Source: Nitrospirota bacterium (GTDB taxonomy: Bacteria > Nitrospirota > Thermodesulfovibrionia > Thermodesulfovibrionales > UBA6898). Taken from it: a stretch of 64,000 nt of DNA. The stretch covers positions 434,001-498,000 of the forward strand of contig JACRMT010000004.1 of assembly GCA_016214855.1 (NCBI GenBank), in the 5' to 3' direction. A program made the translations under genes and the position numbers. Positions 14,327-24,318 of the stretch are shown here, in pieces (within the stretch, counting starts at the first letter, position 1; the number at the start of each line of letters is the position of its first letter). Below the pieces are notes generated by a model that saw only the letters and a list, made by a program, of their open reading frames with translations, had not been told where the DNA came from and searched no databases.

Positions 14327-14845
14327 TTATTTCTTGCGAAGCATTCGGGGCCAGTTCTCGTCAGCCTTCTTTATATATGCCTGCATATCTTTCTCCCACA
14401 ACATCTGGACATCTTTGTTGAGATTCAGATACAGTCTGTCCTCAAAGATGGTCCATGAAGCAGGGTCGATATCAGCGGTTTTCCCCTGACTGACAGCATA
14501 AGCACAGTACCCCCCATACATGGGCGCATATTTTTCAGCATCTTTTTTGAACATTTCAAGGTGAGCTGAACTGGCAAATCTCCATACTGCACCCTTCCAG
14601 ACATACTTGAATTCAGACATTCCCTCGATTGGTCTCTTGTCGGTGAAATATGCAACTGGGTCATAACCTTTGATCGCTAACCCTTCATCAGTTACATTGA
14701 CAGGAGGGACGGATACGCTTTTAACACAAGAAAATAGAGTATAGAAAATGGCAATGGCTATAAGAAGACCTCTTGTCCATGCACTCAAATTCAAATTGTT
14801 GTCCTCATTTCGCCCCCCTGAAACTTCGAAATCCTGATTTTTCAT
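14327..14845 (-). CDS. YHS domain membrane-anchored protein
   Basis: 172 aa: an N-terminal membrane segment (about 25-45, with a Cys at the end that could be a lipid site) followed by a YHS-type domain (GLAIKGYDPVAYFTDKRPIEG at 66-86, then WRFASSAHLEMFKKDAEKYAPMYGGYCAYAVSQG). YHS domains are small metal-linked modules often found near copper or haem proteins; here a di-haem peroxidase gene lies upstream on the same strand. Confidence 0.85.
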   Translation of the reverse strand: MKNQDFEVSGGRNEDNNLNLSAWTRGLLIAIAIFYTLFSCVKSVSVPPVNVTDEGLAIKGYDPVAYFTDKRPIEGMSEFKYVWKGAVWRFASSAHLEMFKKDAEKYAPMYGGYCAYAVSQGKTADIDPASWTIFEDRLYLNLNKDVQMLWEKDMQAYIKKADENWPRMLRKK

Positions 14846-15025: not shown

Positions 15026-16294
15026 TTATTTCGGAAAACTCAGGGGACCGCTTAGTGTTCGGAGAAACGCCTCTATTTTTGCAAGTTCGCTATCTGTAAG
15101 AGACTGGTGCTCAAGTTCTCTGCTGGTGCTTTTCCTATAGAATTGCAGGACATCAGAAAGCGTTTTCAGTTGTCCCCGGTGCATGTACGGAGCCCGATCA
15201 GCAACGTTACGAAGAGTCGGTGTTTTGAATGCTCCGACATGCTTTGCCTTATTCTTATCGATGAAGCTCAGCTCAGCGCATTCCTCAGGCTTCGCATCGC
15301 TGTACTTTCCGAAACAGTTGAACTCATCGTTCAGGACCTTATCAATGCCTTCAGCCCTTCCCTTATCTGTCCGGTTTTTCAGCCCGATATTATGAAAACT
15401 ACTATTCGTAAAAAGTGGGCCCATGTGGCAGTTTGTGCATTTTGCCTTGCCGATAAAGAGACTGAGACCTTCCACTGCCTCCTGACTAATAATTTGTGCT
15501 CCTTCCCGGTTCTCCCTTACTACTGCTTCAACATAACGATCAAAAGGTGCCGGCTGGGGCAGGATCTGCCTCTCATAGGCAGCAATTGCCTTCCCTATGT
15601 TGACATAGATTCTGTTAACCGATTCCCTGTCCCCAGGTTTCATAGCATTCCATAGCTTGAGTGCAACTGGATTTCCCGTTCCAGGACTTGCCTTCGGCGG
15701 ACAACTCTGATGATCTATCTTCGGCAGCTTCCCGAAGATATCCTCGTATTCCTTCTTGTATTTGCTAATGATAAGGTGCGCGCACAGGGATCGGGTAAAG
15801 CCATGTTCCACGGAGCTTTCGATCGGTCCGATTGCCTGGGACCAAAGGCTATCCTTCCTGCCATCCCAGAAAAACCACGCATTATAGGCAGTCCCGATTA
15901 TAGGCATGGTCCTCCGGGTTGTCGTCCCCATGCCTTTTGCTAATGGTAATTTATCAGTAAAGCTCTCTGCCGGAATATGGCAGGTTGCACAGGATACTTT
16001 CCCGTTGGCACTGAAGCTCACATCAAAAAAAAGCTTTTTCCCGAACGCTACAGCTCTTGAATCCTCAGTGTAGGCATTGGAAGGATCCTTTGGTAACGGA
16101 GGAAGGGCAGAAAGCGAAAGGGAGCGAAGAGTCCTTATTTCCTCTTCGCTCCACTTATGCATTTCTGGTAGAGACTTAGCTTCTGCAGAAACCCGTACCG
16201 CCACATGCAAAACAGACAGAATGACCGTTATGAATACAACAATAATTGTTGCGGTCCTGATAGAGAGAACATTCCGACAGTTTCGCATATTCAT
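15026..16294 (-). CDS. Di-haem cytochrome c peroxidase (MauG/CcpA family)
   Basis: 422 aa, exported. A signal segment (about 10-38) is followed by two c-type haem motifs, CATCH (about 100) and CTNCH (about 285), in the usual spacing. It also has the family motifs FDVSFSANGKVSCATCH and KTPTLRNVADRAPYMHRGQ. It reduces hydrogen peroxide in the periplasm, or performs a MauG-like oxidation. It starts ten bases after the Cys-repeat protein gene stops, so the two are probably co-transcribed. Confidence 0.93.
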   Translation of the reverse strand: MNMRNCRNVLSIRTATIIVVFITVILSVLHVAVRVSAEAKSLPEMHKWSEEEIRTLRSLSLSALPPLPKDPSNAYTEDSRAVAFGKKLFFDVSFSANGKVSCATCHIPAESFTDKLPLAKGMGTTTRRTMPIIGTAYNAWFFWDGRKDSLWSQAIGPIESSVEHGFTRSLCAHLIISKYKKEYEDIFGKLPKIDHQSCPPKASPGTGNPVALKLWNAMKPGDRESVNRIYVNIGKAIAAYERQILPQPAPFDRYVEAVVRENREGAQIISQEAVEGLSLFIGKAKCTNCHMGPLFTNSSFHNIGLKNRTDKGRAEGIDKVLNDEFNCFGKYSDAKPEECAELSFIDKNKAKHVGAFKTPTLRNVADRAPYMHRGQLKTLSDVLQFYRKSTSRELEHQSLTDSELAKIEAFLRTLSGPLSFPK

Positions 16295-16304
16295 CCCGGC
16301 TGGG

Positions 16305-17180
16305 TTACTTGACCTGAATATTGAAGGTTACGCTATCAGTCTTGTCTCCAGCTTTGATATCAAAGGTCATCCTCCACCAGCCGAGCATGCTGAATTTGAT
16401 GCCCTCAATAAGACAGGTGCCGTCAGAGGTATTCTTAGTCACTTTTGGCACGGTCGGCAGGCCATGACCGTGCTCGGGCATTTCACCGCTGACTGTTATC
16501 TCAGCGTCTTTCACTGCCTGTCCTTCAGCTGTCTCCACCTTGAGCTTCCAGGAGATGATCTTGTTCACAGGAATCTCGCCAGTGTACGTCGCCTTGAATA
16601 GCCCATCCTTTGATTTCATGGTTGTCGCATAGTCTGCATCGGATGTTGGTTTTAATTTTGCTTCGTCGCCAAGAGCACAATGGCTGCACTTACAATCTTT
16701 TCCGCACTTGCAGCCGCCGTTACCTTTCCCCTTGCAGTTACAGGTACCTTTACCAGTCTTGCAGTGATCACAGGTGCAACCCTTGCCGCATGCGCAACCC
16801 TTTTCTCCTGCCTTGCATGTACACTCGCCTTTGCCGGTTTTGCAGTGTTCGCATTTGCAGTCCTTGCCACAGTTGCAACCCTTACCATCTAAGCTGCAGT
16901 TACAATTTTTTCCTGCCTTACCTTTTTTCCCCTTAGCGCAATGACCACAATTGCAGTCTTTACCACACTGGCAATCGCCCTTGGCACTGACTTTACACTG
17001 ACACGTTCCCTTGCCGGTTTTGCAATGTTCACAGTTGCAGTCTTTTCCGCACTTGCAGTCCTTGCCGTCACCCTTACACTGGCATTTTGGCGCAGCATCA
17101 GCGAAGTCAAACACCTGTGTCAATGACATTGATCCGAGAAATACAACCGCCAACAGCACAATCATCATTTTTCTAAACAT
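16305..17180 (-). CDS. Exported protein with five metallothionein-like Cys repeats and a YtkA-like C-terminal domain
   Basis: 291 aa from the ATG at 17180, which follows AAGGAGG at proper spacing; a longer in-frame start has no such site. Signal peptide 1-30 (ends ADAAPK). Residues 33-168 hold five tandem repeats of the form C-x-C-x(6-7)-C-x-C-x3-C-x-C-x-H-C, joined by KTGKG-type linkers. That gives 35 Cys and five His in about 136 residues. Residues about 175-291 form a beta-rich domain with EMPEHGHGLPTVP, like FixH/YtkA-type periplasmic modules that often occur with copper proteins. Probable role: binding soft metal ions (copper, zinc, cadmium) outside the cytoplasm. I know no described protein with this architecture. 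A GTA-N8-TAC site lies 173 bases upstream. Confidence 0.85.
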   Translation of the reverse strand: MFRKMMIVLLAVVFLGSMSLTQVFDFADAAPKCQCKGDGKDCKCGKDCNCEHCKTGKGTCQCKVSAKGDCQCGKDCNCGHCAKGKKGKAGKNCNCSLDGKGCNCGKDCKCEHCKTGKGECTCKAGEKGCACGKGCTCDHCKTGKGTCNCKGKGNGGCKCGKDCKCSHCALGDEAKLKPTSDADYATTMKSKDGLFKATYTGEIPVNKIISWKLKVETAEGQAVKDAEITVSGEMPEHGHGLPTVPKVTKNTSDGTCLIEGIKFSMLGWWRMTFDIKAGDKTDSVTFNIQVK

Positions 17181-17352
17181 GTACATCCTCCTTAGAGTAT
17201 TTGATTCGACATTTACAAGCCCTACGATTTTTTCCATATGACGCATCATTCTCTTGAGCCATCCAAGTCTGTTTGCAATCATGGAACAGCGTTCTTTCAT
17301 CTGAGAGACTGCCTATTGGTAAAATACTATCAGAAATAGCATCAATAATTAT

Positions 17353-23669: not shown

Positions 23670-23903
23670 ATGAAAAAGCTGCTTTTATCCGTAGAAAAGG
23701 ATTATTGTTCGGAATGTTCTCTGGCTCTGACAAGATTTATCGGAAACATGGATGGTATTGATTCTCTTGGCATAGAAAACGGTTCCATAGCAATTGTCTT
23801 TGACGAATCGAAAATATCCGCAGCAACGTTGGTCGAAATAGCAGAGGAAAACATTCGCAGATTCGGTTATAGTCTGCTGAACGCGGATGTCAATAATATT
23901 TAG
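23670..23903 (+). CDS. Small HMA-like metal-binding protein
   Basis: 77 aa with the ferredoxin-like fold of heavy-metal-associated domains. CSEC at about 14-17 replaces the usual CxxC, followed by LTRFIGNMDGIDSLGIENGSIAIVFDE and a second helix. It may act as a cytoplasmic copper chaperone. A good site (GAGGAAAGGAATT) precedes the ATG. First gene of a four-gene operon. Confidence 0.75.
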   Translation: MKKLLLSVEKDYCSECSLALTRFIGNMDGIDSLGIENGSIAIVFDESKISAATLVEIAEENIRRFGYSLLNADVNNI

Positions 23904-23922
23904 AACTTCTGGAGGAATTCCT

Positions 23923-24318
23923 ATGAAAGCAATCAGCAATATCGTCCTGACAGCAGTCGTGTTATTATCGATCGGCATCGCACATGGTAAGGATTACGAG
24001 ATCAATAAAGTTGTGGGCGGTTGCAATGTTGTGATGAAAAGCGACAAGAATCCACCGGTTGCAGGGGATAATAATGTCAGTGTGGATATTACCGATATAT
24101 CCGGCAACCGTGTCAGTGATCCAATAGTAGTCGTCGAATATTCCAGACCGGCGAGAAGCGGCATGCCTCCGATGAACTATACGGCTGATACCGTTATGAA
24201 GAACGGGAAATTTGTAGGTAAAATGAGCCTTTCCCTACCAGGCCCCTGGAACATAACAATAAAAATAATTCGGGGCGGGGAAACAGCGCTGGCGCGACTC
24301 ACGGTTGACGTTGAATAA
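23923..24318 (+). CDS. YtkA/FixH-like periplasmic protein
   Basis: 131 aa from the ATG at 23923, after GGAGG. Signal peptide 1-21 (ends AHGKDY). A beta-sandwich module with [19 protein letters not shown]-like features and [10 protein letters not shown] near the end, as in YtkA-like domains. It probably handles copper or acts as a periplasmic chaperone; exact role unknown. Confidence 0.7.

Follow-up and report, generated by a model that had tools for sequence, protein, structure and literature searches.

A predicted exported protein with metallothionein-type Cys/His repeats and a YtkA-like domain, encoded beside a MauG-like di-haem enzyme in a Nitrospirota family

Introduction

Bacterial metallothioneins, such as those of the SmtA type (PF02069) and MymT, are small cytosolic proteins. 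Storage of Cu(I) by many Cys residues in an exported protein is known from Csp1, a pre-folded four-helix bundle with a Tat signal (PMC7558416). The periplasmic copper-resistance (Cu/Ag) protein CrdA of H. pylori carries the Met cluster MMXEMPGMXXMXEM, with no His or Cys (PMC9182242), and CtaK (YtkA) of B. subtilis has been implicated in CuA assembly (PMC13344008). Several MauG-like di-haem enzymes are encoded next to a particular partner. For MbnH/MbnP, a di-haem MauG-like gene is fixed beside a partner gene, and this arrangement is widely distributed (PMC3621798). For CorA/CorB and MopE/SACCP of methanotrophs, a surface or secreted copper protein is co-transcribed with a MauG-like di-haem protein, and the copper of CorA and MopE is held by two His residues near a Trp that is oxidised to kynurenine (PMC3912023).

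Exported stores of the Csp1 type, metallothioneins, YtkA/CrdA domains and pairs of a MauG-like enzyme with a partner are therefore each already known. An earlier, sequence-only reading of the present DNA had regarded an exported metallothionein-like repeat protein fused to a YtkA-like domain, next to a di-haem peroxidase, as new. Since Csp1 had been described, export alone is not new; a literature search of limited extent found no report of the combination presented here, nor of the YtkA-MauG pair as such.

Results

An array of Cys/His repeats behind a signal peptide

A gene on the minus strand of the window, by which we mean the whole stretch of 64,000 nucleotides that was analysed, encodes a protein that we refer to as MT-YtkA. 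From the N- to the C-terminus it consists of a Sec-type signal peptide, five Cys/His repeats and a YtkA-like domain. The features of the gene and of the first part of its product are:

17187..17192, minus strand: ribosome-binding site AGGAGG, read from the sequence, with a 6-nt spacer to the ATG at 17180
16305..17180, minus strand: MT-YtkA gene, 291 aa by translation, with a start that is common to the homologues
17094..17180, minus strand: signal peptide, residues 1-29, with the AxA site A27-D28-A29, read from the sequence
17022..17084, minus strand: Cys/His repeat 1, residues 33-53, a motif in the sequence
16938..17003, minus strand: Cys/His repeat 2, residues 60-81, likewise
16842..16904, minus strand: Cys/His repeat 3, residues 93-113, likewise
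16761..16823, minus strand: Cys/His repeat 4, residues 120-140, likewise
16677..16742, minus strand: Cys/His repeat 5, residues 147-168, likewise

The N-terminus, MFRKMMIVLLAVVFLGSMSLTQVFDFADA/AP, reads as a signal peptide of the classical Sec type with an AxA site, in agreement with the signal peptide that had been noted ahead of the repeats, and periplasmic export of the protein is predicted. The description of five repeats with seven Cys and one His each, and of 35 Cys in 136 residues, proved exact on residues 33-168, where these 35 Cys and five His residues are set at a fixed spacing. The repeat unit is CxC-(n)-CxC-xxx-CxCxHC, and can also be given as CxC-n-CxCGKDCxCxHC. The motif was observed five times; when the 138-aa segment was shuffled 20,000 times, no shuffled version contained it more than once. 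The 36th Cys of the protein, C256, lies inside the YtkA domain and is not conserved. A promoter and terminator scan gave a result at chance level.

The similarity of the repeats had been taken to suggest a recent tandem duplication. Tandem Repeats Finder detected no array at a score of 30 in the MT-YtkA gene, and the repeat cores of this gene are 58-83% identical in DNA, so that recent duplication is not indicated for the copy in the window and was ruled out there. The DP16D relative, unlike the window gene, has near-identical repeat units.

None of the Pfam and NCBIfam metallothionein models matched the MT-YtkA protein above its cut-off. The prokaryotic metallothionein model PF02069 (cut-off 33 bits) gave no match with the protein at E 1, and across the whole genome nothing exceeded this cut-off. 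The only metallothionein model that came near was that of the plant Ec type (PF02068; 17.4 bits, below the cut-off of 31.8), which is a Zn protein, and the Ec structure matched in a profile search of solved structures at E 0.4-0.5. Other weak PDB matches (CBP/p300 domains, YTH1 and a defensin) seem to reflect Cys composition and were rejected. In the metal-free AlphaFold2 model the repeat region is unfolded, with pLDDT values of only 37-65, which would be expected of a metallothionein but is not diagnostic. At these low pLDDT values the model shows no helix bundle of the Csp1 type. By its Cys pattern the array is of the metallothionein type and is predicted to bind metal; the same Cys residues could equally accommodate Zn, Cd, Ag, Hg or As(III).

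A CrdA-like domain with conserved Met, His and Trp residues

The C-terminal part of the protein comprises the following features:

16308..16631, minus strand: YtkA/CrdA-like beta domain, residues 184-291, from PF13115, the model and the CrdA match
16461..16481, minus strand: MPEHGHG motif, residues 234-240, with the putative copper ligands M234, H237 and H239, from its invariance in 50 rows and the CrdA alignment
16374..16391, minus strand: SMLGWW motif, residues 264-269, with M265 and the Trp pair W268/W269, from conservation and the doublet tally

The YtkA-like domain of the sequence-only reading was recovered by PF13115 on residues 190-272 (E 2.2e-9; 38.3 bits against a gathering cut-off of 25.9), and AlphaFold2 models it confidently, mostly with pLDDT over 90. 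The closest solved structure to this model is H. pylori CrdA (Z 13.4, rmsd 1.9 over 98 residues; next fold Z 9.6), which was also found in a profile search with the domain sequence (E 0.00038). The Met cluster of CrdA aligns onto the MPEHGHG and SM-G-W motifs, and along these CrdA motifs the YtkA domain carries Met, His, His and Met. Invariant in a YtkA alignment of 50 rows are M234, P235, H237, H239, G240, P245, G254, M265, G267 and W269, and W211 and W268 are nearly so. On the strength of the CrdA match and the role of B. subtilis CtaK, we infer that copper may be bound at M234/H237/H239/M265. No CuA subunit is detectable in the genome, so the known role of CtaK does not carry over and the client would differ.

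We scanned the species-genome collection with the YtkA alignment, which yielded 55 loci. A WW doublet is present in 49 of 55 partnered MPEHGHG domains; all 53 other YtkA/FixH-type domains lack it and have G-x-W at this place. The scan patterns favour GW, but members with KFQMGGWW or RFNMGGWW could enter solely via the other pattern. The remaining six partnered domains, among them those of Planctomycetota and a myxobacterium, have G-x-W, and W268 therefore cannot be an obligatory substrate everywhere. W269 is invariant, yet general in YtkA domains. A second YtkA gene in the window (23887-24318, plus strand; PF13115, E 1.6e-10) encodes a single-domain protein with GPW, not GWW, and no di-haem gene was seen adjoining it.

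The adjoining gene encodes a MauG-like di-haem enzyme

Directly downstream of the MT-YtkA gene lie:

15026..16294, minus strand: MauG-like di-haem enzyme gene, 422 aa, 10 nt past the MT-YtkA stop, from PF03150 and the model
15977..15991, minus strand: first haem motif CATCH, residues 102-106, with invariant Cys and His
15425..15439, minus strand: second haem motif CTNCH, residues 286-290, with invariant Cys and His
15137..15139, minus strand: Tyr386, the equivalent of MauG Tyr294, from alignments

This neighbour had been named a di-haem peroxidase. Its di-haem nature is borne out by a match to CCP_MauG (PF03150; E 2.8e-36, 125.8 bits against a cut-off of 25.6) and by the invariance of C102/C105/H106 and C286/C289/H290 in an enzyme alignment of 33 rows. 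The name peroxidase, however, has to be amended. Y386, invariant in the same 33 rows, aligns with MauG residue 294 and with the column of the Met ligand in cytochrome c peroxidases (CCPs), and by this Tyr at the second axial ligand position of the C-terminal haem the enzyme is MauG-like and not an ordinary cytochrome c peroxidase. It scored below the equivalog cut-offs both of MauG proper (TIGR03791, TTQ biosynthesis; 159.4 against 443.85 bits) and of MbnH (TIGR04039; 137.7 against 362.85 bits), and thus resembles the MauG type without being either. The enzyme model has the CCP/MauG fold, with the top structural scores against peroxidases (Z 27) and a Z of 25 for MauG. Two places before the second CXXCH, where we take the relay Trp199 of MauG to sit, the enzyme has Ala, so that the electron path would differ.

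Genomic context of the pair

Following the pair in the window is one further gene:

14327..14845, minus strand: YHS-domain (seleno)protein-type gene (NF041384), whose link to the pair is uncertain

A YHS-domain paralogue is also found near the MT-YtkA copy on contig C18 of the same genome. This gene (L037 1979..1497, minus strand) has an in-frame TGA exactly at the position of a Cys in the paralogue of the window (14845..14327; GGY[C/U]AYAVS), and the two are likely, from their sequences, to be a selenoprotein/Cys paralogue pair; SelA is encoded in the genome. Near the C18 copy there are also apparently exported MsrA- and MsrB-like genes (L037 213-1402), which were named from the sequence by eye; MsrA and MsrB are methionine sulfoxide reductases. 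A second small Cys-rich family, apparently exported as well (L037 6431-6811; L039 7581-7967; L050 7383-7766; L051 8408-8830; L142), has modules of the form CxCGxxCxC...PGxCxCGK that recall a heavy-metal-binding domain with altered spacing, and one member searched against Pfam gave no match over the cut-off.

Within the window of 64,000 nt no copper transporter gene was noticed near the pair. In genome G002, CopC and CopD-like genes adjoin the operon. The neighbours tallied around the pair were for the most part housekeeping genes and two-component systems, with three multicopper oxidases among the rest, and with this mixed outcome the neighbourhood alone does not fix the metal.

Repeats detected in one family, added to a widespread gene pair

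The genome (3.3 Mb, 23 contigs) has three MT-YtkA loci, located in the window and on contigs C10 and C18. The C10 locus is a second intact MT-YtkA/di-haem pair, and at the C18 locus (L037 5763-6110) the di-haem gene is cut to about its first 87 residues and MT-YtkA is intact. The full architecture, with a metallothionein-type Cys-rich array fused to a YtkA-like domain as the sequence-only reading had seen it beside the di-haem gene, recurs in nine proteins from this genome and related ones and is thus no sequencing oddity. Among 60 related genomes it turned up in additional genomes from two genera of the same family; the named carrier records (UBA6898, UBA6905, SZUA-452, SW.3.86 and DP16D) are filed as Nitrospirota or Thermodesulfovibrio. 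The search for the repeat pattern that had been suggested found the C.C.HC core with its His in all nine proteins, at 2-5 full cores each. Two of the nine genes have no intact adjoining di-haem gene, namely the C18 copy, where it is truncated, and that of DP16D, where none was found, which shows that repeats and enzyme are separable. The close relative G003 has the same operon without the repeats. In more distant Nitrospirota a second FixH/YtkA-like domain is fused in front, where the repeats would be, and a homologue of this domain is encoded by a separate upstream gene beside the C10 copy and in G002 and G003. In several Nitrospirota the pair is followed by genes for larger proteins that start with a FixH/YtkA-like domain (L067 5323-8309; L063 6736-8217; L083 6549-8090).

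The 55 YtkA loci belong to Nitrospirota, Desulfobacterota, Chloroflexota, Pseudomonadota, Acidobacteriota, Gemmatimonadota, Myxococcota and Planctomycetota, with one record named Rokubacteria. A di-haem gene lies directly downstream on the same strand of 41 of the 46 named MPEHGHG-type domains that have room downstream, and nearly all of the YtkA-MauG pairs across these about eight phyla are without Cys repeats. The ancient and widespread unit is the YtkA-MauG pair, and the di-haem gene is a conserved partner, not an incidental neighbour. The repeats were found in no group other than one Nitrospirota family, where each protein has 2-5 copies. In a tree of the YtkA domain and the enzyme, all repeat-bearing proteins and G003 fall into one clade (support 99/97), and this tree requires at least two changes, most readily explained by a single gain and a single loss of the repeats. 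A repeat-only search gave no match in 297 genomes from the phylum of a Desulfobulbaceae locus or in 398 genomes from the phylum of a Variovorax locus; the same query gives matches in four positive genomes. Outside the family, none of 396 sampled genomes of the same phylum had the repeats, the one weak match being a different Cys-rich protein, and searches of plasmids and of viral contigs revealed no carrier.

Discussion

We consider it about an even chance that the locus specifies a periplasmic unit composed of a thiolate buffer for Cu(I) or another soft metal, a YtkA copper site and a MauG-like enzyme that oxidises its partner. MT-YtkA would be exported by Sec, with the putative copper site (M234, H237, H239 and M265) in its C-terminal beta domain. 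The Cys/His array would fold only around metal and, as a buffer, could take up several soft metal ions per repeat; Cu(I) would be the most likely of these in view of the fused YtkA domain and the CopC/CopD-like genes beside the G002 operon. By analogy with MauG, MbnH/MbnP and CorB/CorA, the enzyme probably oxidises the YtkA partner, turning on it the oxidising power derived from peroxide, most likely at W268/W269. This Trp pair is the obvious candidate substrate on those analogies, although its candidacy is weakened by the G-x-W exceptions and by the Ala at the place of Trp199. Because there are loci with repeats but no intact enzyme gene, and loci with the enzyme but no repeats, we regard the array as an additional store and not as a substrate of the enzyme. 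On the tree, the repeats arose by a single gain in the ancestor of one Nitrospirota family, and in this lineage they have probably added metal storage to a copper-protein/enzyme pair of much wider occurrence.

Three other explanations have to be weighed against this proposal. The array might serve as a store or detoxifier of Zn (or Cd), with the YtkA domain and the di-haem protein forming a separate copper/redox module that merely shares the operon. With seven Cys and one His, each repeat offers eight ligands, as many as two tetrahedral Zn sites require, the nearest metallothionein model is that of the Ec type, and the separability of repeats and enzyme would fit as well; the fused YtkA domain, its match to CrdA and the CopC/CopD-like neighbours in G002 nevertheless point to copper, and we regard this explanation as unlikely. 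That the Cys residues form a metal-free, disulfide-linked structural stalk or surface protein is far less probable still. Exported Cys-rich repeats can in general be disulfide scaffolds, and a varying number of repeats would be in keeping with this; but there are seven Cys in each repeat, the total is odd in five of the nine MT-YtkA members, where the Cys residues cannot all pair as disulfides, the CxC spacing is repeated, and every C.C.HC core has retained its His.

The third explanation concerns the enzyme, which could be a peroxide-scavenging peroxidase that shields the thiolates and Met ligands of an unmodified partner from H2O2. Its CCP-type fold, for which peroxidases score higher than MauG, agrees with such a role, and oxidative stress on Met is suggested by the exported MsrA/MsrB-like genes near the C18 copy. 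The Tyr in place of the Met ligand of CCPs speaks against it, as does the fact that the enzyme is also paired with YtkA domains that lack Cys repeats, and we judge this explanation improbable. Oxidation of the YtkA partner by a MauG-like enzyme remains our preferred reading. In its most extended and more tentative form, to which we would give somewhat less than an even chance, the pair would represent a further class of MauG-like enzyme with a copper protein, present in about eight phyla. The enzyme would oxidise the two adjacent Trp residues of a YtkA/CrdA-type domain and thereby build or tune a copper site, and one Nitrospirota family would also have gained an exported metallothionein array.

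If so, a modular exported metallothionein with a variable number of repeats and a fused copper domain would extend a kind of protein that is known as small and cytosolic, and would illustrate how a periplasmic store can be joined to a copper system that a bacterium already possesses. Storage, a chaperone site and post-translational redox modification would be united in one protein in this family. For MauG-like enzymes, which are widely distributed, the YtkA-MauG pair points to a defined candidate partner and, within it, to two specific residues. This bears on the question of what most of these enzymes do.

Comparison with known systems

The system shares with MbnH/MbnP a di-haem MauG-like gene with a fixed adjoining partner, and the present enzyme matches PDB entry 6e1c (Z 24.8), the title of which describes a MauG-like protein associated with copper homeostasis. 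The partner here is instead a YtkA domain, with Cys repeats in this Nitrospirota family, and in a test for MbnP (TIGR04052) no NCBIfam family matched the MT-YtkA protein at E 1. The two His residues and the Trp at the copper site of CorA and MopE have a parallel in the YtkA partner, which has, as judged from its sequence, two conserved His residues and a conserved Trp pair, but the fold is many-stranded there and a small CrdA-like domain here. CrdA has the matching fold and the collinear motifs MPEM-GMP and SMNGTW, but is a single domain with no His or Cys; we found no report of a MauG-like partner for it. With SmtA and MymT, MT-YtkA shares a Cys-rich composition and likely metal-thiolate clusters; it differs from them in its predicted export, its 2-5 repeats, its fusion to another domain and the lack of a PF02069 match. 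Csp1 is likewise an exported protein with many Cys residues, whereas those of MT-YtkA lie in short Cys/His repeats without a predicted fold, behind a Sec-type signal.
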